Positions 49,872-63,530 of a stretch of DNA of 64,000 nucleotides are shown here, piece by piece. The notes beneath the pieces were generated by a model, which was given only the letters and a program-made list of their open reading frames with translations, had not been told where the DNA came from and searched no databases. This DNA is from Lentibacillus halodurans (GTDB lineage Bacteria > Bacillota > Bacilli > Bacillales > Amphibacillaceae). A program made the translations under genes and the position numbers. The stretch covers positions 156,948 through 220,947 of the forward strand of contig NZ_FOJW01000003.1 in assembly GCF_900112045.1 (NCBI RefSeq), in the 5' to 3' direction. Each line of letters opens with the position of its first letter. Positions within the stretch are counted from its first letter, which is position 1.

Positions 49872-50612
49872 ATGCTGGAATCGAAGCGGAGAGCAATTAT
49901 ATTTTTTTTATTGGCGATTTTATTGGCTGCAGTTTCCGGTTTCCTGGTATTAAAAAAAGTTCAGGCACTAAATACAGATTTGGGAACAATGGTAACGATT
50001 TACACGGCCGATAAAGAAATTCCATCAAGAAAAGTCGTAACGCCTGATGATGTAACAACTGATGAAATACCACAGCAATATCTTCGTGATGAACATATTA
50101 CAGATGTTGAAGAGCTGGTAAACAAAGTTTCCGTTGTACCATTGTCAGATGGTGATATCATAACCAGAAACATTTTAAAAGAAGCTTCAGCCGTAACAGA
50201 AGCTAACAACCGGCTTGTATCGATGTTGAGATCGGAAAAAGTATCATTTGATGAGGAAATGATTGCATTGGATCGTGCAGATATCATTGTTTCACATAGT
50301 TTTGAAGAAGAGCCGCTTACGGAAGTTTTTATGGAGGATATAAAGGTAGCAAGGGTAGCGCATAACGAAGAAGGGGAGTTTTCAGGTGTTCAACTGGAAA
50401 TTCCATATGAAAGAGTTTCAGAACTTATACATATGCAAAATTATGCAGACAGCTTACGTGTTGTTAAAGCAAATGTAGCAGAAGATCAACGGCGGGAAGA
50501 AACAGAACAGGGAACAGAGACTTCCGAGGACAAAAATTCAACTAATGGTGAGTCCGGAAATGAGGAAGAAGAATCCGAACAATCGAATGATAGTAATGAG
50601 AATAATGATTAA
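49872..50612 (+). CDS. cpaB: Flp pilus assembly protein CpaB/RcpC-like (SAF domain)
   Basis: 246 aa. One N-terminal transmembrane helix (AIIFFLLAILLAAVSGFLVL), a SAF domain (about 40-105: DKEIPSRKVVTPDDVTTDEI, VVPLSDGDIITRNIL), a second small domain, and an acidic Ser/Asn/Glu-rich tail. In Tad systems CpaB is an envelope protein of the pilus machine. No secretin exists here, so it presumably faces the cell wall. First gene of the locus; GAGGGTTCACCGTAA before ATG. Confidence 0.85.
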   Translation: MLESKRRAIIFFLLAILLAAVSGFLVLKKVQALNTDLGTMVTIYTADKEIPSRKVVTPDDVTTDEIPQQYLRDEHITDVEELVNKVSVVPLSDGDIITRNILKEASAVTEANNRLVSMLRSEKVSFDEEMIALDRADIIVSHSFEEEPLTEVFMEDIKVARVAHNEEGEFSGVQLEIPYERVSELIHMQNYADSLRVVKANVAEDQRREETEQGTETSEDKNSTNGESGNEEEESEQSNDSNENND

Positions 50613-50641: not shown

Positions 50642-51772
50642 ATGAGTAAAGTCAACGATATTTATGTAATAGGGGAAAATGAAGACTTGGCAGTGACATT
50701 AAAGGAACAAGTAAATGAATCGTTTCAGTTGAATTTTCATGGTGCCACTGATGTGAAAAAGGTAGATGCGCCAATAATTCTGATTATGAATAACGGAGAG
50801 ACTGCCACAGATGATGCACAAATGGTTTTATCCGAACATCCTGATTCATGGATTATTTGCTTGAGTGATGAAGAAAACTTTAATCTGCTGAGAAGCTTGA
50901 ACCAATTGGGGATAACAGACTTTTACGTGCTTCCCGGTGAAGAACTGATTTTTATGGAACGTCTGGAAGCTTTGGCAGAAGAAGTCAGTACGAAAAACGA
51001 AAAAGTATCTGAAACAAGTTTTAGACGTGGTGGTGGAAAGATTTTCGCTTTTTACAGCGGAAGCGGGGGTACTGGCAAATCCTTAATCAGCACGACATTT
51101 GCGCAGACATTGAAACTGGAATCGACTGCCAAAGTACTATATATTGATTTGAATTTGCATTATGGGGGGGCTGAAACATTCCTTGGAATTGACAGTAATC
51201 GCTCGATAATCGATTTATTGCCTGTTATGGATGAACTTGGTGAACACCATATCCGCAATGTATCAGAAAAGGAGGAGCATTCGGATTTACATGTGCTTGT
51301 AAGTCCAATGGATGCTGAATTGGCCGAGAAAATAACAGATGACTTTGTTGTTAAACTTCTTCGGGCCAGTAAACGGCATTATGATTTTATTGTAGTAGAT
51401 TTACCAGTCTGGATGGATGAAAGAACAGTAACTGTTCTGGAAGAAGCCAATCGGGTTTACTACACGATGAATCTTGATACGGTTGCTATCCGTGTGCTGA
51501 AAAGTGTCGAAAACCTATTCCAACGATTGGGTGTTATCACACAGGATCGCTTAGAGTTTGTCATTAATTTTAAAGGAAAGGATAATGAACTGACCAAAAA
51601 AGACTTAGAACGCTTTTCAACTTATCCGGTAGCTTCAGAAATCAGGAAGGATATCAAGAATGTTCAAGCATATATTAATCAGGGTGAGCCAATAAGGAAA
51701 GAACCCCGGGAAAAGAAGCTGCACCCATTTTCCAAAGATATTCATAAATGGGTTCATTCAATGTTGAAATAA
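50642..51772 (+). CDS. tadZ: TadZ/CpaE-like ParA-MinD family protein
   Basis: 376 aa. An N-terminal receiver-like domain (about 1-120; no clear phospho-Asp pocket) is followed by a MinD-type P-loop domain: Walker A region FYSGSGGTGKSLISTTFAQT, then AKVLYIDLNLHYGGAET and FIVVDLPVWMDE. The first Lys of the deviant Walker A (KGGxGKS) is replaced by Ser, as reported for some TadZ proteins. Localises the Tad machine to its site. 29 nt after cpaB. Confidence 0.85.
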   Translation: MSKVNDIYVIGENEDLAVTLKEQVNESFQLNFHGATDVKKVDAPIILIMNNGETATDDAQMVLSEHPDSWIICLSDEENFNLLRSLNQLGITDFYVLPGEELIFMERLEALAEEVSTKNEKVSETSFRRGGGKIFAFYSGSGGTGKSLISTTFAQTLKLESTAKVLYIDLNLHYGGAETFLGIDSNRSIIDLLPVMDELGEHHIRNVSEKEEHSDLHVLVSPMDAELAEKITDDFVVKLLRASKRHYDFIVVDLPVWMDERTVTVLEEANRVYYTMNLDTVAIRVLKSVENLFQRLGVITQDRLEFVINFKGKDNELTKKDLERFSTYPVASEIRKDIKNVQAYINQGEPIRKEPREKKLHPFSKDIHKWVHSMLK

Positions 51773-51790: not shown

Positions 51791-53161
51791 GTGTCTCTTT
51801 TTCAAAGAAATGCAAAAGTACAGTCAGAAAACGACATAGATGCCGGGTTTGTTTCCAATTCCGGATATTTGGATGAACTGGTTGAACATTATAAATCCAG
51901 GCTGTTGACTGAAGTGAATCTGGATCAGATAACTAGTCTGGATGATTCTGATAAACGGTTGAAGATTGAACGATTTATCAATCAGTTCATGTCTGAGGAA
52001 AAAGTGGTTATCCCAAGACAGGATAAAGAACGAATGCTAACCATGTTAATTGATGAGAGTGTTGGCTTCGGCCCATTGGAACCATTGCTGAAAGACGATT
52101 CAGTCACGGAAATATTGGTGAATAATCCGAAAGAAGTTTATGTTGAAAGAAATGGCAATCTTGAGAGAATTAATATATCATTCAAGGACGAGGCACATGT
52201 TAAGCATATCGTAGACAGAGTTGTAGCCCCACTTGGAAGAAGGATCGACGAAAGTTCTCCGATGGTTGATGCTCGTTTGCCAGACGGTAGCCGTGTTAAC
52301 GCTGTTATTGAACCTATAAGTCTGGGAGGAACACTTCTCTCAATTCGGAAATTCCGAAAGACTCCATTTATGATGGATGATTTAAAGGATATTGGTACCT
52401 TTACAAATGCAATGTCTACCTTCATGCAAGCGTTGGTGGAAACAAAATTGAGTTTGCTTATTTCTGGCGGTACCGGCAGCGGGAAAACAACATTGCTGAA
52501 TGCACTGGCCAAATCAATTCCCAATGGTGAACGTGTTGTCACGATTGAGGATTCAGCTGAATTAAAGTTCGATCGGCCGAATGTCGTTGGCATGGAAGCT
52601 CGGCCGCCTAACGTGGAAGGCAGTGGTGAGGTGACCATCAGACAGTTAGTGAAAAATTCCCTCCGTATGCGCCCCGACCGTATTCTTGTCGGGGAAGTAC
52701 GCGGGGCAGAAGCGTTCGATATGCTTCAGGCCATGAACACAGGTCACGAAGGCTCGCTGACAACTGTTCACGCGAATACACCGTTTGATGCGATTAATCG
52801 TGTTGAAGGAATGGTTGTCATGGCCGGAATGGATTTGCCTACACACGTGATACGCGACTATATCGCCGGTGCACTTGACTATATTGTGCAAGTACAGCGC
52901 CTGACGGATGGAACACGAAAAATCACGAATATATCTGAAGTGGAAAAAACAGGGGAAAACCGGATTGAGGTTAGAGACATCTTCCGGTTTCAGCGTACTG
53001 GTGTCGATGGTGAAGGTAATGTCAGGGGATATTTTACCCCAACAGGCGTTATTCCAAAATGTTTGCCGCATTTAGAGGTATTCGGTATTGATTTGGATAA
53101 AGAGCTGTTTGAACCGAGGGAGGGAAGCAGCTATGAATCTGGCAGTATCTATACTTTATAG
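51791..53161 (+). CDS. tadA: Tad pilus secretion ATPase TadA/CpaF
   Basis: 456 aa. Type II/IV secretion ATPase: Walker A LLISGGTGSGKTTLLNALAK, Asp box VVTIEDSAELKFDRPNVVGM, Walker B MRPDRILVGEVRGAEAFDML, His box GHEGSLTTVHANTPF. Powers pilin assembly. The start is GTG; the ribosome binding site (GGTGGTGG) is modest. Its 3' end overlaps tadB by 29 nt. Confidence 0.95.
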   Translation: MSLFQRNAKVQSENDIDAGFVSNSGYLDELVEHYKSRLLTEVNLDQITSLDDSDKRLKIERFINQFMSEEKVVIPRQDKERMLTMLIDESVGFGPLEPLLKDDSVTEILVNNPKEVYVERNGNLERINISFKDEAHVKHIVDRVVAPLGRRIDESSPMVDARLPDGSRVNAVIEPISLGGTLLSIRKFRKTPFMMDDLKDIGTFTNAMSTFMQALVETKLSLLISGGTGSGKTTLLNALAKSIPNGERVVTIEDSAELKFDRPNVVGMEARPPNVEGSGEVTIRQLVKNSLRMRPDRILVGEVRGAEAFDMLQAMNTGHEGSLTTVHANTPFDAINRVEGMVVMAGMDLPTHVIRDYIAGALDYIVQVQRLTDGTRKITNISEVEKTGENRIEVRDIFRFQRTGVDGEGNVRGYFTPTGVIPKCLPHLEVFGIDLDKELFEPREGSSYESGSIYTL

Positions 53162-54062
53162 TTTAGGAGTTTTGTCGTTTCTGTTATTTGTCTATTACTT
53201 TCTTGGATACAGATCCCAGAAGAAAGAATGGAAGCAAAAGGTGGAAGAATGGTTTCCAGAAGAAGAACGCAAAAGTCTTATCAGTAAATGGGGAGACCGA
53301 TTTGATGAAAAGGAGTCTTCGGAGAAATTAAGAAATAAACTGCATCATGCGAATCTCAAATTACTGCCATCGGAATATCTGGGGATCTTAATTGTAGGGT
53401 ACCTTGTATTATTCGTTATGTTTTATTCCATTTTTGGAATGCCGTTACCGCTGAGTATAGCTTTACCGATATTATTGTTATTTGTATCTAACTATCTATT
53501 ATTCTATTTTCGGAAAAATAGCTATGAACTGCGTTTTAATGATCAATTGAGTGAAGTTTGCCGGATCCTTGGCAGTGCAGCCAGATCAGGTTTAACAATC
53601 AACCAGGGAATCGATATTGTTGCCCGAGAAGTTGCTGCCCCTGCAGGAGAGGAATTTAAACGAATCTCCAATGAACTGAAGCTCGGAGTTAATTTAGAAT
53701 CGGCATTTCGGTCTGTCCAAAAACGAAATACATCACGCGATTTTAACTTGTTTATTGCTACGTTGCTTATTCAGAAAAAAACAGGCGGGAATTTGGCACT
53801 GACTCTGGATACTATGGCAAATACGTTTGAAGACAGAAAAGTACTAAACCAGATTATTAAAACAATGACATCCGAACAAAAATATATATCGTTTATTGTA
53901 CCAGCGTTACCTGTATTTTTGCTGCTTGTGATGAATAATGTGATAGATGGATTTATTGAACCTTTATGGTCAGGTTTTGGATTGGTTATTTTAATTATAT
54001 TTATAACAGCTATTGTTTTATCATTTTTTCTCATACGTAAAATTACAAATATTAAGGTGTAG
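53133..54062 (+). CDS. tadB: Tad inner-membrane platform protein TadB
   Basis: 309 aa. T2SS-F domain (about 140-270: LSEVCRILGSAARSGLTINQ, GGNLALTLDTMANTFEDRKV) between N-terminal and C-terminal transmembrane helices. Works with TadC as platform for the ATPase. The frame opens upstream, but GGGAGGGAAGCAGCT fixes ATG 53133, inside the end of tadA. Confidence 0.92.
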   Translation: MNLAVSILYSLGVLSFLLFVYYFLGYRSQKKEWKQKVEEWFPEEERKSLISKWGDRFDEKESSEKLRNKLHHANLKLLPSEYLGILIVGYLVLFVMFYSIFGMPLPLSIALPILLLFVSNYLLFYFRKNSYELRFNDQLSEVCRILGSAARSGLTINQGIDIVAREVAAPAGEEFKRISNELKLGVNLESAFRSVQKRNTSRDFNLFIATLLIQKKTGGNLALTLDTMANTFEDRKVLNQIIKTMTSEQKYISFIVPALPVFLLLVMNNVIDGFIEPLWSGFGLVILIIFITAIVLSFFLIRKITNIKV

Positions 54063-54065
54063 CTT

Positions 54066-55001
54066 ATGGATGCATTAATTATTTTATCAACTATTGCTTT
54101 CTGGTTCTGCATATTGCTTTGCTTGAAACATTTTTGGTCCTTTTTGAGCGAGAAGCGTGATATGTTAGGGCATGTATCAGATGTTAGCCATGTTGACCCG
54201 TTTGAAAAAAAGGAAAAAAAGAAAAACAGACGTGCTCAAATCTTCAGCCGTGTCACGAAATATGCTGATGATTTCACTGATTTGGGGCAGCGTATCAATT
54301 TCTTCAGTGAAAACCACATGGTTGAAGAATGGCTCAAAAAATCTGGGAATCCCTTGAAGTTGACGGTTGCCCGGTTCCAGGGTCTGAAAATATTTTTGCT
54401 GATTGTTGGATTTTTCACCGGTATCCTGGCCATTATCATGGGGCTTCCGTTCTCACAATATATGCTTGTATTTAACCCAATTATTGGTTATTTCATACCC
54501 ATTGTATTGATAAGGAGGGAGGTCAAGAAAAGACAGCAGCAAATCAGATCTAAATTGCCAGATTTTATGGACACTGTCAGTACCAGCCTGCAAGCTGGTG
54601 TGAGTCTGGATAATGCTTTAAGGGAGGTGATTCGATATTTCGATGGTCCGATCCGTGAAGAGTTCTCGCGTTTCAATCAGGAAATTGATCTTGGAGTTCC
54701 CCGGGAAAAAGCCTATCGTGAACTCTTGAAAAGAAATGAAAACCAAGAATTCCAGTCACTGATAAAGGCACTAATACAAGGGATGGATCTCGGAATACCG
54801 ATAGCGAAGACATTTCAAATCCAAGCTGAAGAGTTGCGCGAAATACGTCAAGAGCAAGTGAAGGAATTGGCAGCAAAAGCTTCGCCAAAAGTTACGCTGG
54901 TCACAACATTTTTGATTGCACCCGTGTCCATATTGATGATTGCTGGATTGATGATCATGAATATGTTGATGGGAGAAAATAACATTTTTAATATGTTTTA
55001 A
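54066..55001 (+). CDS. tadC: Tad inner-membrane platform protein TadC
   Basis: 311 aa. T2SS-F domain (about 160-285: KLPDFMDTVSTSLQAGVSLD, ALIQGMDLGIPIAKTFQIQA) with transmembrane helices at the start, in the middle (two, about 95-145) and at the end. Partner of TadB. AAGGTGTAGCTT before ATG, 3 nt after tadB. Confidence 0.92.
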   Translation: MDALIILSTIAFWFCILLCLKHFWSFLSEKRDMLGHVSDVSHVDPFEKKEKKKNRRAQIFSRVTKYADDFTDLGQRINFFSENHMVEEWLKKSGNPLKLTVARFQGLKIFLLIVGFFTGILAIIMGLPFSQYMLVFNPIIGYFIPIVLIRREVKKRQQQIRSKLPDFMDTVSTSLQAGVSLDNALREVIRYFDGPIREEFSRFNQEIDLGVPREKAYRELLKRNENQEFQSLIKALIQGMDLGIPIAKTFQIQAEELREIRQEQVKELAAKASPKVTLVTTFLIAPVSILMIAGLMIMNMLMGENNIFNMF

Positions 55002-55023: not shown

Positions 55024-55233
55024 ATGAACTTTATTAAAGGATTGTATGCAAAAGCTATTAACAATGTGGAGGCTATGAAAAATGATGAAAGAGGTTCACA
55101 GACTTTGGAGTGGTTGGGCATTGCGGCCGTGATTGTAATTATTGTAGGGATCATTTCTAATGCATTTGATGATAGTTTGGGAGATACAGTTAAAGAAAAA
55201 TTTGAGGAATTTATCGATAACATTGGCGGGTAA
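55024..55233 (+). CDS. flp: Flp-type prepilin
   Basis: 69 aa. A basic leader ends in Gly24, followed by SQTLEWLGIAAVIVIIVGII: Glu at +5 after the cut and a hydrophobic helix, the class III prepilin pattern. Mature length about 45 residues, right for Flp pilins. Placed directly after tadC, with AAAGGAGGAGTTTCAGT before ATG. No prepilin peptidase gene is in the window. Confidence 0.9.
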   Translation: MNFIKGLYAKAINNVEAMKNDERGSQTLEWLGIAAVIVIIVGIISNAFDDSLGDTVKEKFEEFIDNIGG

Positions 55234-55288: not shown

Positions 55289-56704
55289 ATGAGATATAAG
55301 TTGTTAATAAGCTCTATAATGTTCTTGACAGTACTATTGATCGGGTGTACGGGTGAAGAGGATCCGGATCAAGATTCAATTCAAAATGAAGAAGATACAG
55401 CAGAGGCTGATAATGAAAAAAAGAACTCGGATGACCCTAGTTCGATTCAAGAGAATAAAGTAGAAGATAATCAAAATTTGAGTTTCTTAAAAGATGTACC
55501 TGAAGTACCAAACGATACAGCAGGTTTTATAAATCAAGCTGCAGGACCTTATGCAGGAATTGATGTAAGAGATGAAAGTGTTGTGGATGATGTTAAGGAA
55601 GATCTTTTTAAACTTGATTCGCTACCTGAAGATGCCAATGAAGAGCAGTTGAATGCATATTATCAGTATATATATTCGCTGGTTGCTGAAGATTTTCCTG
55701 ATCCTCAGGACACTATAAAAAAATGGGAGTTTGGATCCTTTGGTAACCCTGATTTACCAGATGCACGCTATCACTTCAAAGAAAATTACAACGTTGAAGT
55801 ATTACTTGATGCCAGTGGAAGCATGGGCAACTATATTGGCGATAAAACAATGATGCAGATTGCCAAGGAATCCATTAATGACTTTATGAAGCAGGTACCC
55901 GAGGAAGCAAATGTGTCTTTTCGGATTTACGGGCATAAAGGAACCGGTTCTGATAGTGATAAAGAGATGTCTTGTGGAGCTATTGAGCAAGTTTACGGTT
56001 ACGCTCCATATGAAGAAGATGAGTTTCAGCAAGAACTGGACAAAATAGAACCGGCAGGCTGGACGCCATTGGCTGATGTACTGAAAGAAGCAGAGAATTC
56101 GCTTTCAGAATTTGATGCTGAAAAGAATACGAACCTTATTTATGTTGTCAGTGATGGGATCGAAACATGTGATGGCGATCCTGTTGAAGTTGCTAAATCA
56201 CTATCCGATTCAAACGCACAACCCATCATGAATATTATTGGCTTCAATGTCGACTCTGATGCTCAGGAACAACTGAAAGAGATGGCAGATGTGTCAGATG
56301 GTATTTTTGCAACAGCCAACAATCAGGATGAACTAGAAGAGGAGTTCAACAGGGCAGAGGAAGTATTAGAAGCTTGGGAGGATTGGAAAGAAGACGCATT
56401 AGATGATGCTGAGCATGCCAAAGTTACCAACAATTTTGATATTTTAAGTGTTACTAATGATTGGGGGCAAAAAGATACTTTACAATCCAATAATATTTCA
56501 CGTTTGGTGAACATGCTCCAAAATGCAGATATAATAAATAGCCAACAAAAAAGTGAGATTAGATCCATGAGAGATGAAGATCGTGAGTTAATAAAGGAAT
56601 CAAAGGCTGAAGTTGAAGAACAATTGAATGATATTAGCGCAGAGAAAGTAGAAGAAATGAAACAATCAATCAAAGAAAGATACAATCAGCAAACTCAGAA
56701 TTAA
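55289..56704 (+). CDS. VWA-domain lipoprotein of the Tad locus
   Basis: 471 aa. Lipobox LIGC (Cys20), acidic linker, von Willebrand A domain at about 165-350 with a complete metal site: DASGSMG (Asp174, Ser176, Ser178), Thr259 in GWTPLADVL and Asp289 in VVSDG. A helical, Glu/Lys-rich C-terminal part follows (about 350-471). An intact MIDAS suggests metal-dependent ligand binding at the cell surface; many pilus systems carry a VWA adhesin, so a pilus-associated adhesin or assembly factor is plausible. 55 nt after flp. Confidence 0.88.
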   Translation: MRYKLLISSIMFLTVLLIGCTGEEDPDQDSIQNEEDTAEADNEKKNSDDPSSIQENKVEDNQNLSFLKDVPEVPNDTAGFINQAAGPYAGIDVRDESVVDDVKEDLFKLDSLPEDANEEQLNAYYQYIYSLVAEDFPDPQDTIKKWEFGSFGNPDLPDARYHFKENYNVEVLLDASGSMGNYIGDKTMMQIAKESINDFMKQVPEEANVSFRIYGHKGTGSDSDKEMSCGAIEQVYGYAPYEEDEFQQELDKIEPAGWTPLADVLKEAENSLSEFDAEKNTNLIYVVSDGIETCDGDPVEVAKSLSDSNAQPIMNIIGFNVDSDAQEQLKEMADVSDGIFATANNQDELEEEFNRAEEVLEAWEDWKEDALDDAEHAKVTNNFDILSVTNDWGQKDTLQSNNISRLVNMLQNADIINSQQKSEIRSMRDEDRELIKESKAEVEEQLNDISAEKVEEMKQSIKERYNQQTQN

Positions 56705-56722: not shown

Positions 56723-58069
56723 TTGAAAAGGGTGATAAAAATTGGTAAATGGTTAAGAAAAAGCTTATTACTAGCTACCGTACTCTTAATTACCTTTTTT
56801 CCAGTATTGACCCCTACGGTATTTGCTGTAAGTTCATGGACTGGTGAGTCATGGGAAGGAGAATCCTGGGATGGTTCACCATGGGATGGGTCTAACCTGG
56901 AATGGGATGGCAATACATGGCAAGGTGATTCCTGGGAAGGTGAAGGAACTGAAGGGCCTTCAGTTGGAAATGGTGCTGATGGGAGTGTTGATTGGTCCCA
57001 TATCCCTTGGTATTTAGAGGGCTGGTATGCGGATGACTGGTCTGAGGATGGGTATTCCGGCAATCCGTGGGCTCAACCCGGATTTAATGGGGATGGTACA
57101 ACCGGAGATCCATGGAACCGGGATGGATTCAATGGAGATAGAACGAATGGCAGTCCATGGATGCAAGATGAATTTCAAGGTGATAGTTACTCCGGTAATC
57201 CTTGGTCACAGGATGGCTATCAAGGAAGTCCTTATGACGGCAGTCCATGGTCTCAGAACGGTTTTAATGGAAACGATACGAATGGCCAAGGAACAAATGG
57301 TAATGGCACCAATGGAAATGGAACGAAAGCAGAGATAACAAAGTTTGGTGTTGTTGATGTAATGGGTGGTACTGCTTCCTTTATAGAAGCTGGTTTAAGA
57401 CATCAACGATACCAGGATGTCGGGAGATTAGGTTCAGGTTTTGGCTCAACTGCATTTAGTACATACGGTGGCATCCTTGCAAATGGGCTAAAATTGGCCG
57501 GGGTGGATAATACATTTACAGATGGATTAGATGCAGGTACAAAAATTAATGATGGCGTTAAAGGATATAAAAAAGTTAGAGATGCAAAAGACTTCAGGAA
57601 AACCTCAACACCAGGTGGAAGAGATATATCCACTGGTTCAAAGTCCACAAAACTTTCTAAACCGGGAGGAGTTGAAAAAGCATTATCTAAGTTTAATGTA
57701 GCCACTGCAGCAGTAGGTACGGCGTATTCAGGAGTTGAGACTTTTAATAAATGGCAAAGTGCTTCTGAAGTGATGGACAGTAATGCAAGTGGGGCAGAAA
57801 AAACTGCCGTAGCGGCTGATGTAGGAGAAAGTGCAGGTAATACACTTATGAGTGCCGGCGTTGTTACCTCTGCTGTCCCCCTACCAGGTGCAAGAGTTGC
57901 TGGAGGAGTAATGGTAGTTGGTGGAGCTGTCCTTTGGGGAGCCTCAAAACTTACAAAAACGGTTGCTAACAACTGGAATTCCATCAAAGATACAGGTAAA
58001 AAAGTCTGGGAAGGAACGAAAAATGTTGCTAAAAAAGGCTGGGACGCTGTGACAGGTTTATTTAGTTAA
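56723..58069 (+). CDS. Secreted tryptophan-glycine repeat protein, copy 1 (unknown family)
   Basis: 448 aa from TTG 56723. Parts: Sec signal ending TPTVFA; a W-x-G repeat region (about 37-75: SWTGESWEGESWDGSPWDG, period near 5); a looser repeat with SGNPW/NGSPW units to about 190; an Asn-Gly-Thr linker; and a roughly 250-residue Gly/Ala-rich C-terminal domain with hydrophobic stretches, ending GWDAVTGLFS. The C-terminal domain is shared with the protein at 59746. No family recognised; adhesin, pilus-linked surface protein or membrane-active effector are all possible. Start is odd: AAAAGGGTGATAAAA points to an ATT at 56741, which would give the cleanest signal peptide. Confidence 0.8.
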   Translation: MKRVIKIGKWLRKSLLLATVLLITFFPVLTPTVFAVSSWTGESWEGESWDGSPWDGSNLEWDGNTWQGDSWEGEGTEGPSVGNGADGSVDWSHIPWYLEGWYADDWSEDGYSGNPWAQPGFNGDGTTGDPWNRDGFNGDRTNGSPWMQDEFQGDSYSGNPWSQDGYQGSPYDGSPWSQNGFNGNDTNGQGTNGNGTNGNGTKAEITKFGVVDVMGGTASFIEAGLRHQRYQDVGRLGSGFGSTAFSTYGGILANGLKLAGVDNTFTDGLDAGTKINDGVKGYKKVRDAKDFRKTSTPGGRDISTGSKSTKLSKPGGVEKALSKFNVATAAVGTAYSGVETFNKWQSASEVMDSNASGAEKTAVAADVGESAGNTLMSAGVVTSAVPLPGARVAGGVMVVGGAVLWGASKLTKTVANNWNSIKDTGKKVWEGTKNVAKKGWDAVTGLFS

Positions 58070-58100
58070 CAGAAATGAGCCATAGCTCATTTCTGTTAAC
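58065..58100 (+). other. Perfect 16-bp hairpin on the stop codon of the repeat protein, copy 1
   Basis: GTTAACAGAAATGAGC is perfectly inverted after the loop CATA. The TAA stop (58067-58069) is inside the left arm. No T-run follows, so it looks less like a terminator than an RNA stability, processing or partial-attenuation element separating copy 1 from its partner gene. Confidence 0.8.
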
Positions 58101-58131
58101 CATATTTCAATGACTGAAGAGAGTGAATGGT

Positions 58132-58959
58132 ATGAAGTATGATGATCCACTTGTTGCGAAAGAAGCAAAAAAACATAAAAAACTTTTCGAAACGTTTAAC
58201 ATTAACCCGGGTTCCTATCGAATAAACAATCATGATTATTTTTTTATAAATTATTACAAATGGAATAAAATTACCGATTGTGCAGTAGTTTCTCCAACTT
58301 CTCATGCTGGGAGAGACGAGTATCTCGAGGCATTTGATGCACTATTGGAATATGCACAGATAACAACATTAATTTTGACTCATGGTGGGGAAAAAGCGAG
58401 TGCTGATATGCATGCCTTTACTACAATGGAAAGGTTTCTGTCGGATGTTTTATATGAAGCTGGAAACGATTTAACAAAAGAAATCAGAAGTGTCTTAAAT
58501 TATTGTCTTGAAAGAATCAAATTAATTACGAGCCTGCAGGAGCGACTGGTCGAAATATATCATGATTTTCAACAAAAAAATCAGAAATTACATGATAAAG
58601 AAAAAGAAAACTTTACGATACAAGATCTAAAAGAAGCAGCCCATTATCTTGGTGAGCTAGACTATATTCAATACAGGCAAATTGTAGCAATCTATGAATA
58701 TATCCCTAAATTTAAATATATTAAAAAAATAAATAATCAAGAGGTAAAAAAACATATGACTACAGCTGTTAAAAGGTATCTGGTTGAGTTTTCAAAAGGT
58801 GAAGAGGAGCAGCGTAAAAGTATAGAAAGCGTTAAATTCCAATCGAATATGGAAGAATTAACAAGAGAAGAACATATTGAAGGTGCAAAAAAGGGTTTTT
58901 ATAAAAACTTAGCAGAGACAAACGCATCAACGCGAAAATTATTGAGATACCCTAAATAG
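58132..58959 (+). CDS. Cytosolic helical partner protein, copy 1 (unknown family)
   Basis: 275 aa, no signal peptide or transmembrane segment, charged and mostly helical. N-terminus EAKKHKKLFETFNINPGSYR and C-terminus RKLLRYPK match the protein at 61020 (RAKKHKKLFEKYWIEPNHLY; IKNLRYPTLG), as does the middle (GELDYIQYRQ against AEMDYIQFTQ). It follows the repeat protein in both copies, so a chaperone, secretion adaptor or immunity-like role for it is inferred. Start at ATG 58132 (GAGAGTGAATGGT) rather than GTG 58123. Confidence 0.8.
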   Translation: MKYDDPLVAKEAKKHKKLFETFNINPGSYRINNHDYFFINYYKWNKITDCAVVSPTSHAGRDEYLEAFDALLEYAQITTLILTHGGEKASADMHAFTTMERFLSDVLYEAGNDLTKEIRSVLNYCLERIKLITSLQERLVEIYHDFQQKNQKLHDKEKENFTIQDLKEAAHYLGELDYIQYRQIVAIYEYIPKFKYIKKINNQEVKKHMTTAVKRYLVEFSKGEEEQRKSIESVKFQSNMEELTREEHIEGAKKGFYKNLAETNASTRKLLRYPK

Positions 58960-59012
58960 ACTACACTAAACTTAACATAATAATAAGGATTAAAAGTGAC
59001 AAGGAGAATACC

Positions 59013-59729
59013 ATGGAAAAACCGCTTAAATTTACATGGGAAATATACACAGGCAAATTCGAAAAAATATTAGTACTTATGCTGACAACAACTCTGCCAT
59101 TGTTGATGGTACATTCATATGTGACAAATTACATATATGCAATTACACCAAATGATTCAGCTATTTATTCAGTCGCCGATATTTATTATGGTCTTATTAC
59201 ACTACTATTATATCTTTATGCGCAAATACCTTATATTCGTTTCATATATAACGAATATAAAGGCGTTGAAAACAATTTACGAAACTCAATTTACCATTTT
59301 CTGGTTAACGGTTTTACGGTATTCGTTTTTGCTTGTATTGTTTCCATCATAAGTACTGTAGGTTTTATGTTTTTAATATTACCGGGGCTAGTTTTCCTTG
59401 CACTGGTATTCCCGGTACCATATATAAGTGTTTTTGACGGCAAATCTGTCTGGAAGTCATTTAAAGAAGGGTTTCGAATCGGCAAAAAGAAATTCTTTAA
59501 AATTATGTTAATCGTTATACTGGCAGGATCGGCGGAACTCTTATTCGGCATTTTCGTAACATATCAGCTATTTAATGTTACATCCTCATTTGCTGCACAG
59601 ATTATCACCCAGATGACGCTCAATATAATTATTTATCCTTTTGTTATTATGATGTTGACTTCATACATACTTAAATGGCGTGAAGCGCTTGAAACACTTG
59701 AAGTTAAGGCTAATACAAATGATGGTTAA
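59013..59729 (+). CDS. Six-helix membrane protein between the module copies (unknown)
   Basis: 238 aa, about six transmembrane helices (near 17-36, 55-75, 95-115, 117-137, 160-185, 197-221). Segment FDGKSVWKSFKEGFRIGKKK before helix 5 is like DUF975/glycerophosphodiester-phosphodiesterase-type membrane domains, but I cannot assign a family. AAGGAGAATACC before ATG. Its stop is 16 nt before the second repeat-protein gene, so it is part of the operon. Could be an export or protection component. Confidence 0.78.
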   Translation: MEKPLKFTWEIYTGKFEKILVLMLTTTLPLLMVHSYVTNYIYAITPNDSAIYSVADIYYGLITLLLYLYAQIPYIRFIYNEYKGVENNLRNSIYHFLVNGFTVFVFACIVSIISTVGFMFLILPGLVFLALVFPVPYISVFDGKSVWKSFKEGFRIGKKKFFKIMLIVILAGSAELLFGIFVTYQLFNVTSSFAAQIITQMTLNIIIYPFVIMMLTSYILKWREALETLEVKANTNDG

Positions 59730-59745
59730 GAGAGCAGGTGTGTGC

Positions 59746-60987
59746 ATGAATCGATTGTTAAAAAGAGTTTTAGCTTTGTTAGCCATTGTCATTATTGCTG
59801 TACAGCCCGTATTTGTGCCTGCTGTATATGCAGTAGATTCTTGGACCGGTAACCCATGGGAAGGTGAATCGTGGGAAGGAACGCCGTGGAATGGAACTGA
59901 TCTACAATGGCAAGGTGAGTCGTGGGAAGGCAATTCGTGGCAAGGTAATGACACTGAAAGCCCAGCACCCTGGTCAGGACAAAATTGGAATCAACAAGAT
60001 GGCATGAATGGTAATCCAGGGTCAAGTGATGGATATTCCGGGGACGGGACCTCACCGGGGGGGCCATGGAACATGCCTGGCTATCGCTATGGTCCAGGTG
60101 GTATCGGAAATCCATGGCTGACACCTGACTTCGAAGGTAATGGGACGGATAGTGACAGTCTCGATGGAAATGGTACAAATGGAAATGGTACGAGTGGAAA
60201 TGAAACAGAAGGCGATCCGACATCACTTGAGGACTTTTCATCACTGCCTTATGGCTATGATGTGGGTAAATATATTGTCAAAGACATTATGATGGGGCAG
60301 GCCGGGCTGATTGGTGATCTACAAACCTATCAAAATATGCAGGATATGGGCTATAACGCCAAAATGAATTATGGTGGCAGATTTTACTCAAATGTGTTTA
60401 TGAACGGCCTGAAACTGGGTGTTGGTGATAATATAGCCTTTGATTCCTATGATACATATACGCATGTATCTGATGGTATTGGTGGTATTAAGGACTACAA
60501 CTATATTCGAAATGCTCAAAAGACAACTGATACGGCGGGCGATTTGGCTAGTGCATCAAGTAAAATTTCCGGTAAGACTCCACCAGCGTCTTCAGTTGGT
60601 GCTTTATCCAAGTTTAATATAGCTGCCGCAGCAGTAGGAACGGGTATTTCTGCTTTTGAAACAGGATTTAAATCGGCAAAAGCTGTTGATGTTCTCACTA
60701 GTGATGCCTCAGGAGCTGATAAAACATCTGCGGTTGCAGATGCGACTGCCAGTTTGGGAGATACCATAATGAATGCAGGTGTTGTTACAACTGCTATTCC
60801 CGGTGGTCAGGCAATAGGTGCTGGTATGGTAGCTGTCGGAGCAGGTGTTTGGGCAGTATCTAAAGGTGTTAAGTTTGTGGCCGACAATTGGAAAGGAAAC
60901 TTGGCAGATACAGGCAAGGCCATGTGGAATAAAACAAAAGATACAGCTAAAAAAGCCTGGGATACTGTAACTGGGTGGTTCTCATAA
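59746..60987 (+). CDS. Secreted tryptophan-glycine repeat protein, copy 2 (unknown family)
   Basis: 413 aa. Signal peptide (LALLAIVIIAVQPVFVPAVY-A), W-x-G repeats (DSWTGNPWEGESWEGTPWNG, then WQGESWEGNSWQG), a Gly/Asn/Pro linker, and a C-terminal domain clearly homologous to the 56723 protein: ALSKFNIAAAAVGTGISAFE, DASGADKTSAVADATASLGD, MNAGVVTTAIP, ending KKAWDTVTGWFS. The linker is more diverged than the two ends. Start ATG 59746 with GCAGGTGTGTGC; the frame extends 22 codons into the membrane-protein gene. Confidence 0.82.
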   Translation: MNRLLKRVLALLAIVIIAVQPVFVPAVYAVDSWTGNPWEGESWEGTPWNGTDLQWQGESWEGNSWQGNDTESPAPWSGQNWNQQDGMNGNPGSSDGYSGDGTSPGGPWNMPGYRYGPGGIGNPWLTPDFEGNGTDSDSLDGNGTNGNGTSGNETEGDPTSLEDFSSLPYGYDVGKYIVKDIMMGQAGLIGDLQTYQNMQDMGYNAKMNYGGRFYSNVFMNGLKLGVGDNIAFDSYDTYTHVSDGIGGIKDYNYIRNAQKTTDTAGDLASASSKISGKTPPASSVGALSKFNIAAAAVGTGISAFETGFKSAKAVDVLTSDASGADKTSAVADATASLGDTIMNAGVVTTAIPGGQAIGAGMVAVGAGVWAVSKGVKFVADNWKGNLADTGKAMWNKTKDTAKKAWDTVTGWFS

Positions 60988-61019
60988 GTTTAACCAATAA
61001 GTGTGGAGGAATGCTATAA

Positions 61020-61850
61020 ATGAAAGCGATAGAAGAGACTCTGCAGAATAGGGCTAAAAAGCATAAAAAACTATTTGAGAAATATTGGATCGAACCCAAT
61101 CATTTATATTTTAAAGGCTCCCATTTTTATTTGTCTTTTTATGAGAGGTTTCAGAAGACAGAAATAGGAATCTTGTCAACACAATCCGAAGTTTCCAATG
61201 CGGATTATAAAGAAGCATTTGAATGGCTAGTCATCCTTATGAATAGGATGGCTGCTATTCAAGAAGTTGGTATGGAACGCAAAAACATTAATATGAAGGG
61301 GTTTTACAAAACAAGAGCTTATTTGGAGAAAACGCTTGAGTATGCAACATTGTCCTCAAATGAAAAAAATATAATTGATCAATGTCTCCACTCAATGAAT
61401 GATGCTATTTCATTACAAAACCGGATGGTTGCACTTATGGACGAGTTCGAACAGTTTAGAGAAAAAAAGGAAACAGAAGGGAATGAATTCTCCGTACCAG
61501 AGGTTGAAGAAGTACATGACTTTCATGCTGAAATGGATTATATTCAGTTTACTCAGGGGCAAATATCCTATAAATCTGTTGATTTTTTTGCATCTTTAAA
61601 TCAAATAATTAATCAAAATGAAACCATTAAAAGTATAGTTAATTTCGAGGAGGTTAAACAATATATCGAGGAATTTTCACGTGGGAAGGATATGTTAAAA
61701 TCGTCCCTTGATGAGGCTACTTATGTGGATAATTTAGATCAACTGTCAAAAGAACAATTTATGAAGACAGTACAAGAGGACTATATAAAAAGACAGAAAG
61801 AATCCAACAAGTCATTAATCAAGAATCTAAGGTATCCAACTCTGGGTTAA
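61020..61850 (+). CDS. Cytosolic helical partner protein, copy 2 (unknown family)
   Basis: 276 aa, homolog of the 58132 product over its whole length: RAKKHKKLFEKYWIEPNHLY at the start, EMDYIQFTQGQISYKSVDFF in the middle, NLDQLSKEQFMKTVQEDYIK and LIKNLRYPTLG at the end. Soluble and helical. GTGGAGGAATGCTATAA before ATG, 32 nt after the repeat protein. Pairing of each copy with its own repeat protein suggests specific interaction. Confidence 0.82.
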   Translation: MKAIEETLQNRAKKHKKLFEKYWIEPNHLYFKGSHFYLSFYERFQKTEIGILSTQSEVSNADYKEAFEWLVILMNRMAAIQEVGMERKNINMKGFYKTRAYLEKTLEYATLSSNEKNIIDQCLHSMNDAISLQNRMVALMDEFEQFREKKETEGNEFSVPEVEEVHDFHAEMDYIQFTQGQISYKSVDFFASLNQIINQNETIKSIVNFEEVKQYIEEFSRGKDMLKSSLDEATYVDNLDQLSKEQFMKTVQEDYIKRQKESNKSLIKNLRYPTLG

Positions 61851-61928: not shown

Positions 61929-62330
61929 ATGAAACGATGGAAAAGAAAATTTAAAAATGAAGACGGCTCGGCTACAATTGAATTTTTGGGGATTTTACCA
62001 TTAGCTTTGCTATTACTCATGATTATTTGGCAGTTTATTGTGGGAATTAATGGTGTTTTAGTTACACAGTCTGCAGCTAATGAATACGCAAAAGTGTATT
62101 CTATAACCAATAGTGACAGTGAGGCAAGTACGGCGGCTAACAACATTCTTTCAACTACCGGTAGTTACTTGCAAAATCAGGGTGTTACGGGATCTAACCT
62201 TGGAAATAAAAAGTTTACTGCTGAAGCCAATGTAAATATACGTCTCGTTTTTTTACCCAGAGAATTATTTGGGTATCAAGTTCCCTCCATCCCATATGCA
62301 GCAACAGCCAGCAGCAGGGTGATTGAATGA
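61929..62330 (+). CDS. tadE: TadE-like pseudopilin
   Basis: 133 aa. Prepilin-type start KFKNEDGSATIEFLGILPLA: cleavage after Gly, Glu at +5, then a hydrophobic helix (about 18-45), the TadE pattern, with a short extracellular domain. Minor pilin or priming subunit of the Tad pilus. No strong ribosome binding site; GGAGTTGTTTAATCA precedes ATG. The stop overlaps the next gene (ATGA). Confidence 0.87.
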   Translation: MKRWKRKFKNEDGSATIEFLGILPLALLLLMIIWQFIVGINGVLVTQSAANEYAKVYSITNSDSEASTAANNILSTTGSYLQNQGVTGSNLGNKKFTAEANVNIRLVFLPRELFGYQVPSIPYAATASSRVIE

Positions 62331-62998
62331 TGCTGAAGCAACGGTTTCAGAACGAAGACGGTAACATTGCACTGTTTGTACTCGGTATGTTAAGCCTCAT
62401 TATGATTTTACTGATTTTTGTTGTGAACCTTGGCGGTGCTTTGGCTACAAAGGAACAATCGGGAACCACTGTACAGCAGGCAAGCATGGCAGCATCCAGT
62501 GTATTATATGAGGAAGTCCAACGGGTTGTATATGAATATGAGGATGAAACTTTGGAAGGAGCCCTTCAGACGTTTTTCGAGGATATCGATCAGATGGTAG
62601 ATGAAAGGGTAGAGGAATTATCGAGCATGGGAAATTATGCTGATTGGACATCAAATGAAATAGAGTTGGAAGCGTTCGACCAGGTTTTATCAGAGGAACT
62701 TAATAAAGACGTTGTAAGAAGTAAATTAATTGAATTGCTGGAAGATGAAGATATTGAAACAGAAGTCATCAATACAACTAAGAATGCTATTGTTGCCAAT
62801 GAAGGCGTATTAGAAGGCGCACAATTGACCATACGGAACGACCGTTTTCATGTACGTGCTGCTAATGAACTGGAATCCGTTTCATTTGATGGATATATGG
62901 AAGGAATACAGGAAAATGTTTATCAAGAGTCGGCAGGTCCTAAAATTGATTTTCTGGATGTAGTTTGGGACGGGGATCAAGTGATTGCACTCGATTAA
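62327..62998 (+). CDS. TadG-like pilus assembly protein
   Basis: 223 aa. TadG-type N-terminus RFQNEDGNIALFVLGMLSLI with a single transmembrane helix and the following GGALATKEQSGTTVQQASMA, then an extracellular acidic domain (about 55-223). Shorter than proteobacterial TadG, which carries a VWA domain; here the VWA domain is on the separate lipoprotein at 55289. AGCAGGGTGATTGA before ATG; translationally coupled to tadE. Confidence 0.82.
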   Translation: MMLKQRFQNEDGNIALFVLGMLSLIMILLIFVVNLGGALATKEQSGTTVQQASMAASSVLYEEVQRVVYEYEDETLEGALQTFFEDIDQMVDERVEELSSMGNYADWTSNEIELEAFDQVLSEELNKDVVRSKLIELLEDEDIETEVINTTKNAIVANEGVLEGAQLTIRNDRFHVRAANELESVSFDGYMEGIQENVYQESAGPKIDFLDVVWDGDQVIALD

Positions 62999-63020: not shown

Positions 63021-63530
63021 ATGAAACGGCATTTACTGTTGTTTGGATGTATAGCAGTATTATTGCTGCTTGCTGCATGTACCTCAGCAGAGACAGAAGA
63101 ATTAATGGATTACCACAATGGTTATGTTGATCATGTGAACAGTAAAATAACGGAAATCAACACTCTTAGTGAAAAATCACTAAGTTCAGCGTCTTTTGAG
63201 GAAGCACTTGATATTCAAACCAATGAATTACTGCCACTTGTGAACGAAATTAAGGATTATATGGATTCACAGGAGCCTGAGTCAAATGTTGTAAAAGAAT
63301 ATCATTCATTAAGATCTGATCAAGTTGACACCTGGTATGAAGCGTTTCAAATGAAATATGATGTCCTGGAAAAGATGGTGAATGAATCGATTAGTGAAGA
63401 GGAAGCCGATGAAATTATTATGGATGCTGATAATAATTTCATGGAAGCAGGAGAAAAGGCACAAAAAGCAGATAAGAAAATAGAAGATCTGGCTGATGAA
63501 CATAATCTAGAGCTTGAGGAAGAAAGTTGA
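63021..63530 (+). CDS. Small helical lipoprotein, unknown
   Basis: 169 aa. Lipobox LAAC (Cys20), then an acidic, helical body likely to form a coiled coil (MDYHNGYVDHVNSKITEINT, then EKMVNESISEEEADEIIMDA). No family recognised. AAAAGGATGATAAA before ATG 63021; the frame opens 12 codons earlier inside tadG. 22 nt after tadG, so probably in the Tad operon. Confidence 0.78.
   Translation: MKRHLLLFGCIAVLLLLAACTSAETEELMDYHNGYVDHVNSKITEINTLSEKSLSSASFEEALDIQTNELLPLVNEIKDYMDSQEPESNVVKEYHSLRSDQVDTWYEAFQMKYDVLEKMVNESISEEEADEIIMDADNNFMEAGEKAQKADKKIEDLADEHNLELEEES

Follow-up and report, generated by a model that had tools for sequence, protein, structure and literature searches.

The region described here probably comprises two modules of a polymorphic toxin-immunity system that in Bacilli is linked to Tad loci. 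In this system, the C-terminal domain shared by two secreted proteins (CT1) would be membrane-active and the soluble protein encoded next to each of them would be its cytosolic immunity protein. The window analyzed was a 64,000-nt stretch of the 3.67-Mb genome of Lentibacillus halodurans. The CT1-partner system is not local to this window; it was found across the order and extended into the class sample. Literature searches found no earlier description of these families.

A Tad set (ATPase, TadB/TadC, TadZ, CpaB, pilin, TadE, and TadG) was recognized at the locus by Pfam matches and position, with all genes on the + strand. The upstream part contained a CpaB/RcpC-like protein with a SAF domain (49872..50612; SAF 2.2e-5, ChapFlgA 4.7e-7), a TadZ/CpaE-like ATPase (50642..51772; AAA_31 1.7e-12, plus position), the secretion ATPase TadA/CpaF (51791..53161; T2SSE 1.5e-65), TadB (53133..54062; T2SSF 3.6e-18), TadC (54066..55001; T2SSF 5.3e-20), a 69-aa Flp-like pilin (55024..55233), and a VWA-domain lipoprotein (55289..56704; VWA_2 6.1e-7). 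The pilin had no match in the Pfam scan and was judged by eye from its translation, which shows a G/SQTLE pilin-like hydrophobic-helix start; its relatives were present in 55 of 95 loci. The downstream part contained the minor pilin TadE (61929..62330; TadE 2.1e-5), a TadG-like minor pilin (62327..62998; Tad 3.2e-5), and a small lipoprotein (63021..63530) with relatives in 17 of the 95 loci, this locus counted.

Both modules lie between flp and tadE. WxG-A (56723..58069, with an uncertain start that may be the ATT at 56741) was delimited by alignments and sequence features as a signal peptide, a stalk of W-x-G pentads, a spacer, and CT1, and is adjoined by the soluble partner A (58123..58959; alternative start ATG 58132). 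A polytopic membrane protein, MEM (59013..59729), follows; it is weakly UPF0259/YciC-like (sub-threshold matches in Pfam, 0.0021, and in NCBIfam, 4.1e-4). WxG-B (59746..60987) has the same architecture, with CT1 in approximately its last 130 residues, and is adjoined by the soluble partner B (61020..61850); the listed ORF start of WxG-B, 59680, overlaps the preceding gene, and 59746 was taken instead. The first-pass annotation had described two secreted W-x-G proteins with a shared Gly/Ala-rich C-terminal domain, soluble homologous partners of approximately 276 aa, and a membrane protein between the copies, and this description held at these coordinates.

WxG-A and WxG-B were 43% identical overall and 53% identical across the C-terminal domain, and partners A and B were 28% identical. 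Both W-x-G proteins have an N-terminal hydrophobic signal, and in both the Trp spacing begins 5,5,5,7,5,5. The alignment of 29 stalks (two from the window and 27 from relatives) had 11 invariant columns, six of them Trp, of which only the later columns are independent, since the rows were chosen by a pattern in which the initial two Trp and the initial Gly were obligatory. The raw number of W-x-G motifs in WxG-B (nine) exceeded all 10,000 composition shuffles (mean 2.4, maximum 8); the eight motifs of WxG-A did not (mean 3.6, maximum 11). Because the WxG-A count fell within its shuffles, the claim of a repeat rests on regular spacing and conservation, not on the count. WxG-A and WxG-B types also occurred in other genomes: one locus had both (L032), and others were nearest to A (L043) or to B (L037), with WxG-B reference sequences that lacked their first one or two residues. 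On this distribution, a recent duplication was rejected; the two rather resemble ancient paralogous types that have been retained together. The earlier term "duplicated" is to be read with this qualification.

CT1 is a Gly/Ala-rich helical domain whose conservation exceeded that of the mid-protein region (0.65 vs. 0.47). In WxG-A and WxG-B, Pfam and NCBIfam returned no known toxin domain, and Pfam returned no LXG domain. GxxxGxxxG was not enriched in 72 CT1 proteins (mean 0.31 vs. 0.30 expected), whereas CT2, the alternative, glycine-zipper type of cargo, had GxxxGxxxG in 17 of 17 proteins (mean 1.9 vs. 0.6), although GxxxG alone exceeded 95% of shuffles in only four of the 17. A remote relative of CT1 ends an LXG (type VII) protein, in two copies scoring 24.0 and 16.0 bits against a maximum of 9.6 bits in 4000 shuffles; among the proteins scanned, LXG was found by Pfam only in the one at L122, which the L245 and L246 proteins resemble. 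Because CT1 has neither a known toxin domain nor an excess of GxxxG, its membrane action is argued by analogy, and we read CT1 as a putative membrane-active domain on that basis.

The identity of the next gene followed the C-terminal domain. CT1 was followed by the partner in 75 of 78 cases, and with CT2 the next gene encoded a membrane protein in 16 of 17, without crossing; these counts include gene fragments, the profiles of CT1 and of the partner were built by iteration over matches from loci also counted, and the profiles for CT2 and its membrane partner had seven seed loci each, likewise among those counted. The choice of ORFs can miss genes under longer spurious ORFs, as with the expected partner in L237 and L239. 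Adjacent CT1 proteins and partners co-diversified (r = 0.706, reached by one of 5000 within-locus swaps), which supports, in the evolutionary sense, the earlier proposal that they work as a pair. Partners outnumbered CT1 copies in 17 of 63 loci, and 19 of 54 partner-bearing genomes had no CT1 match; in G521, five partners were found and no CT1 match. These orphans may represent one old retention, because 12 of the 19 genomes belong to one family (f25) and six of these have the gene at a similar site. Conversely, the partner profile found nothing in eight of 43 CT1 genomes, and the iterated profile recovered a partner in six of these eight loci.

Partners A and B had no transmembrane-like segment. 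The predicted model of partner B (pLDDT 94.5) consists of a helix, a three-stranded sheet, and a long helical bundle, with no significant fold match in structure comparison. Neither partner matched DUF5085 at E ≤ 1 in Pfam; a scan of 39 partner-family members gave 38 weak families, 25 of them listed. The partner is read as a candidate cytosolic immunity protein for CT1.

Within the order sample (397 genomes), close orthologs of TadC (E ≤ 5.1e-94), which define this Tad type, were found in 55 genomes, 40 of them with CT1 and the other 15 with CT2 cargo. The Tad type was present in 40 of the 43 CT1 genomes; the remaining three (G127, a remnant; G362, the LXG case; and G354) had no TadC match even at 1e-20, and in G354, an assembly of 480 contigs, tadE and tadG adjoin CT1. 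Ten further CT1 genomes in the class sample, left out of the 95-locus counts, had tad genes beside CT1 in seven cases (L235, L237-L241, and L244); in G620, tadC lay just past the fetched stretch, in G618 it was on another contig, and in G554 there was none. CT1-partner pairs scattered without tad genes, an outcome that would have told against the first-pass annotation, were limited to G554 and the G127 remnant, and scattering was rejected on the 40 of 43 and seven of 10 genomes above. Lone partners occurred without this Tad type in 17 genomes.

Every one of the 55 sampled Tad loci of the type had a cargo gene, CT1 or CT2, which resembles a core component more than a patchy toxin, and MEM and the VWA lipoprotein were each present in 63 of 63 loci in which tadC, tadE, and a cargo could all be seen. 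These frequencies, together with the conservation of CT1 and a soluble, adjacent partner, would suit CT1 and CT2 proteins that are core structural parts of the Tad pilus (tip-associated, anchoring, or wall-spanning), with the partner as a dedicated chaperone that maintains the solubility of the hydrophobic domain until it is exported, and with lipase- or nuclease-bearing forms as specialized cargo versions of the scaffold, much like the evolved VgrG proteins of type VI secretion. We regard this as rather unlikely, given the partner arrays, the partners found in genomes that lack any CT1 match, the membrane proteins (not soluble partners) that follow CT2, and the CT1-like domain in an LXG protein.

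The W-x-G stalks carried other C-termini besides CT1: CT2 in one protein (L045), Lipase_3 in three (L045, L046, and L051), and Tox-SHH in one (L087; 1.3e-30, with the pre-toxin domain PT-TG), the only known toxin domain among the relatives. The gene after that of the Tox-SHH protein encodes a SUKH-1 immunity protein (1.7e-10), and the lipase stalks were followed, in the two of three loci where the next gene was in view, by a protein of 344/349 aa whose N-terminal half is hydrophobic. Lipase and nuclease versions amounted to four proteins among the 95 loci, a small number that speaks against the toxin reading. Away from Tad loci, an OmpA-like lipoprotein (L218) likewise bore a W-x-G stalk. Two marks of polymorphic toxins were observed, namely a common N-terminal module with exchangeable C-termini (CT1, CT2, Lipase_3, and Tox-SHH) and a downstream gene that changes with the C-terminal domain, the latter with profiles partly seeded from the counted loci.

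Gram-positive Tad pili are mostly regarded as adhesion filaments. The first-pass annotation had offered, first, a pilus-associated adhesin or coat together with a dedicated chaperone, and second, a secreted membrane-active effector with a protective partner. The former, taken here as having no antibacterial activity, keeps some standing because a cargo gene accompanies every sampled Tad locus of the type, and a secreted, repetitive, Trp-rich stalk within an adhesion-pilus locus, as well as the stalk at L218, would agree with it; it is nevertheless improbable, since such stalks bear lipase and Tox-SHH domains, the latter with SUKH adjoining, and since orphan partners and the LXG relative exist. 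The effector with a protective partner was the best fit to the comparative evidence (lipase and Tox-SHH stalks, a partner that tracks the C-terminus, orphan and tandem partners, and the LXG relative). That CT1 instead forms a pore through which other effectors delivered by Tad enter across the target membrane, and is not itself the killing part, is very improbable: the four lipase or nuclease versions do sit in loci that also have CT1 cargo, but they are only four among 95 loci, and a second effector was absent from view in most loci.

The toxin-immunity reading has parallels in known systems. The glycine-zipper LXG toxins EsxX, with ExiAB and ExiCD (Staphylococcus aureus), and TelE, with TipE (Streptococcus gallolyticus), share a membrane-active C-terminal domain (as presumed for CT1) and loci that encode a soluble cytosolic immunity protein as well as polytopic membrane proteins (PMC12744356 and PMC10434224, both in part). 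EsxX is neutralized by soluble ExiAB in the cytoplasm and by polytopic ExiCD outside, and DUF5085 immunity proteins are described with an SHS2/GyrI-like fold (PMC12744356, in part). Unlike glycine-zipper LXG toxins, the proteins here have a Sec signal and a pentad stalk in place of LXG, and Tad in place of a T7SS; CT1 is without the zipper motif, whereas CT2 has it, and the window partners are not DUF5085 by Pfam. Polymorphic toxin systems resemble this one in a shared N-terminal module, varied C-termini whose downstream genes match them, the pairing of Tox-SHH with SUKH, and lone partner genes; the words tad and pilus are absent from the portion of that article examined (Zhang et al. 2012, PMC3482391). 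The Kil system, a Tad-like predation pilus of Myxococcus, has in common the Tad apparatus, which there serves contact-dependent killing with minor pilins customizing the tip, but belongs to a diderm predator with a needleless T3SS (PMC8460266 and PMC12075869, both in part). Its toxin was still to be discovered according to the available part of the 2021 article (PMC8460266), and the word immunity is absent from the main text of the 2025 article, as far as available (PMC12075869). T7SSg/T7SSh loci of Gram-positives share the Tad neighborhood, and the available text leaves the T7SS-Tad link open (PMC11217815, in part); the WxG proteins differ in having Sec-type signals, and no T7SS gene was recognized by the scans made at 48-64 kb of the window.

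Under the toxin-immunity reading, the WxG protein would be exported by Sec, as its signal peptide indicates, and its disordered repeat stalk would span or decorate the cell wall. In related bacteria brought into contact, CT1 would then act on the membrane, and the 276-aa partner would bind and neutralize its cognate CT1 in the producer cytoplasm. The partner may also protect carriers that lack the toxin; what is shown for it is pairing, partner switching, and orphan distribution. MEM, the membrane partner common to both cargo classes, possibly shields the outer face or aids export. The Tad pilus, the VWA lipoprotein, and TadE/G, which co-occur with the cargo, would give contact and perhaps delivery.

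The analysis suggests that the secreted proteins are probably membrane-damaging, that the partners are likely protective, and that the pilus has a part in bacterial warfare. More tentatively, and with considerable doubt, the Tad pilus of many Bacilli may be a contact-dependent antibacterial machine that brings stalked, Sec-exported effectors to a target, whose membrane CT1 or CT2 would depolarize or open, sometimes admitting lipase or nuclease effectors that share the stalk, while soluble or membrane immunity proteins, frequently gathered in arrays, would distinguish kin from competitors. The 68 CT1-partner pairs, some in Lentibacillus kapialis and Piscibacillus halophilus, are ready for direct functional testing. 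If true, the toxin-immunity reading would mean a new mode of trafficking for polymorphic toxins and a single-membrane parallel to the Kil pilus of Myxococcus.

The Tad locus spans 49.9-63.5 kb of the window (Pfam scans and translations), in the order CpaB-like, TadZ, TadA, TadB, TadC, a 69-aa Flp-like pilin, a VWA lipoprotein, WxG-A (56723-58069), partner A (58123-58959), the polytopic membrane protein MEM (59013-59729), WxG-B (59746-60987), partner B (61020-61850), TadE, a TadG-like protein and a small lipoprotein (63021-63530). Checked on the window's ORFs and domain scans, the coordinates, gene order and description of the duplicated module in the first-pass annotation were all correct. The closest named relative among those found was Lentibacillus kapialis JCM 12580; the source genome has 3.67 Mb. 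The small lipoprotein matched no family in a Pfam search and had relatives in 17/95 loci, with L046 and L047 each carrying two copies. At 56723-56745, a Shine-Dalgarno-like GGGTGAT is followed by an in-frame ATT at the expected start of WxG-A, likewise in some relatives, and GTG, ATA and ATG overlap the ribosome site; the rare start codon ATT may be used here.

WxG-A and WxG-B share one layout: signal peptide, A-V-x-S-W, W-x-G pentads, Gly/Asn-rich spacer, variable middle and CT1, a Gly/Ala-rich C-terminal domain of approximately 130 residues. Their Trp spacing (5,5,5,7,5,5) was identical. Conservation over 25 aligned sequences, taken as the column-wise frequency of the most frequent residue, averaged 0.70 for the stalk, 0.65 for CT1, 0.52 for the spacer and 0.47 for the middle. 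In the predicted structure of WxG-B, the stalk was disordered and residues ~301-390 formed helices in a row (pLDDT 80-87). The final helix (residues 385-411, largely of low confidence) was amphipathic (moment 0.43, net charge +2), in line with the amphipathic C-terminal end proposed earlier for AKKAWDTVTGWFS. GxxxG motifs were no more common in CT1 than in shuffles (72 proteins), and a search of CT1 for a recognised toxin domain returned none. The W-x-G unit was not universal in CT1 proteins, the more distant ones having other pentads (e.g., L104-L107). A lipoprotein-like protein (L218:6761-7492, minus strand) has W-x-G units followed by a domain that by eye resembles the OmpA-type peptidoglycan-binding domain, and no tad gene was present in the fetched stretch; the pentads may be a general wall-spanning stalk.

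Relatives of WxG-B were found in 20/159 genomes of the family, and CT1 profile matches in 43/397 genomes of the order and 11/131 of the class sample (own genome included in every count). Across those 397 genomes, a search with the window's TadC gave 73 matches at E ≤ 1e-60; 55 at E ≤ 5.1e-94 define this Tad type, and the other 18 lay between 4e-70 and 5e-61. The first-pass annotation had asked whether the pair always neighbours tadE/flp. This Tad type was present in 40 of the 43 CT1 genomes (Fisher test, phylogeny ignored, P = 9e-39). In the class sample, locus L242 (genome G554) carries a CT1-partner-MEM module in a genome without a TadC match at 1e-20. The three CT1 genomes lacking this Tad type were G127 (remnant), G354 (fragmented assembly, with tadE/tadG adjoining CT1) and G362. 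Of the 63 loci in which tadC, tadE and a cargo gene (CT1 or CT2) were all in view, 63 had MEM and a VWA lipoprotein; a cargo sat inside the tadC-tadE interval in 52 of these loci and downstream of tadE in 16. In L048 and L050, Tad-side and module genes were broken into several ORFs, through decay or assembly errors.

Each of the 15 genomes with this Tad type but without CT1 encoded, in its Tad locus (L203-L217), a protein of 488-591 aa that ends in a second type of C-terminus, CT2; its gene immediately follows the VWA gene in 14/15 and comes after tadG in L206. All seven CT2 proteins examined in full had P-G pentads instead of W-x-G, and GxxxGxxxG occurred in 17/17 CT2 proteins. With CT1 in 40 genomes and CT2 in 15, one or the other was therefore present in 55/55 of this Tad type. 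This constant presence of a cargo gene, like the good conservation of CT1, speaks against a toxin and would fit a possible alternative, a structural cargo with its chaperone.

The downstream gene tracked the C-terminus across a set of 95 loci, from which L034 and L085 were excluded because they duplicate L032 and L033. After 75/78 CT1 genes, the next same-strand gene was of the partner family, the exceptions being L106 (MEM next) and two LXG-type genes of L122. It was a polytopic membrane protein, TM2, after 16/17 CT2 genes; in the 17th locus (L215), a 201-aa protein missed by the TM2 profile came next. No crossing (CT1 with TM2, or CT2 with a partner, as next gene) was found in these loci. 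The W-x-G module was joined to other domains in four proteins in total. Three were Lipase_3/Mbeg1-like (L045, L046 and L051), with similar 344/349-aa proteins next to the lipase versions in L045 and L051 and the next gene out of view in L046. The fourth (L087) carried a Tox-SHH nuclease (1.3e-30) and pre-toxin PT-TG (3.3e-7) and was followed by a SUKH-1 gene (1.7e-10); the 2012 polymorphic-toxin survey includes a table pairing Tox-SHH with Imm-SUKH (PMC3482391).

Distances over the last 240 residues of CT1 proteins and over whole partners were correlated (r = 0.706; 68 adjacent pairs, 54 loci). Because phylogeny alone inflates such a correlation, partners were swapped only within the 13 multi-module loci: mean r was 0.644 (SD 0.019), and one of 5000 swaps reached the observed value. 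The partner adjacent to the nearest CT1 was also the nearest partner in 23/27 cases. Both results indicate that A and B of the window most likely work each with its own neighbour.

Partners A and B are predicted to be soluble, and a hydropathy scan found a transmembrane-like segment in 0/139 family members of at least 180 aa. The model of partner B (pLDDT 94.5, pTM 0.90) comprised a helix, a three-stranded sheet and a long helical bundle. A conserved L-R-Y-P motif ends the family, which had no convincing relative in Pfam, NCBIfam or PDB. Partner profile matches occurred in 54/397 genomes of the order, 19 of them without a CT1 match, and no CT1 was found in the fetched stretches of those 19. 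Conversely, 8/43 CT1 genomes had no partner at the profile threshold; an iterated profile found one in six of those eight loci, L106 and L122 excepted. Partners outnumbered CT1 genes in 17 of the 63 loci, equalled them in 30 and were fewer in 2, with neither in 14 (CT2 loci). In genome G521, which lacked a CT1 match, a CT2-type Tad locus had five partners downstream of it; in G433, with a single CT1 match, the fetched stretch contained nine whole or partial partner genes. One family, f25, contributed 12 of the 19 orphan genomes, which may represent one event. In six of them, without CT1 or this Tad type, a lone partner gene occupied much the same chromosomal position, close to what by eye is an acetyltransferase-like gene (L184, L185, L186, L188, L190 and L193); the same neighbour was seen beside a partner gene in L200, from CT1-bearing G382. 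Some orphans adjoined VWA lipoproteins away from Tad genes (L189, L194, L196, L201 and L202), as if VWA proteins also paired with partner genes. Orphans favour an immunity role, because a chaperone lacking its client is difficult to explain, unlike a lone immunity gene.

In L122, an LXG protein (LXG 3.7e-55) ended in a CT1-like domain. A DUF5344 gene lay upstream of it, and downstream came a hydrophobic protein (at most 267 aa), a fragment with the C-terminal part only and a second hydrophobic paralogue. The two copies scored 24.0 and 16.0 bits for CT1, vs. a best of 9.6 in 4000 shuffles; the relation is remote and covers approximately the last 100 residues. Full-length relatives, with two such downstream genes, were present in 2/35 congeners (L245 and L246); L122 may itself have contributed to the iterated profile that gave their CT1 match.

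PMC12744356 and PMC10434224 describe the LXG toxins EsxX and TelE, whose C-terminus is membrane-active and which soluble DUF5085 proteins neutralise in the cytoplasm; a polytopic protein pair protects the outer face against EsxX. The window likewise has a secreted C-terminal helical domain, a soluble partner and polytopic MEM, whereas its N-terminus, partner family and zipper motif status differ from those accounts. By analogy, its layout could work like EsxX-type toxin-immunity, and we infer that CT1 acts on membranes. Against a toxin, CT1 lacks a recognised toxin domain, and the lipase and nuclease versions number those four proteins. Among the matches listed in open-access full-text literature (most subscription journals and all preprints lying outside), there was no description of these proteins and no Tad-linked toxin-immunity locus in Bacilli. 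In Myxococcus, killing on contact depends on a Tad-like apparatus (PMC8460266, PMC12075869), and T7SSg/h loci adjoin Tad genes (PMC11217815), so a killing Tad pilus would have some precedent. Given domain swapping, partner switching and orphans, our preferred reading is a polymorphic toxin-immunity system linked to a Tad pilus.
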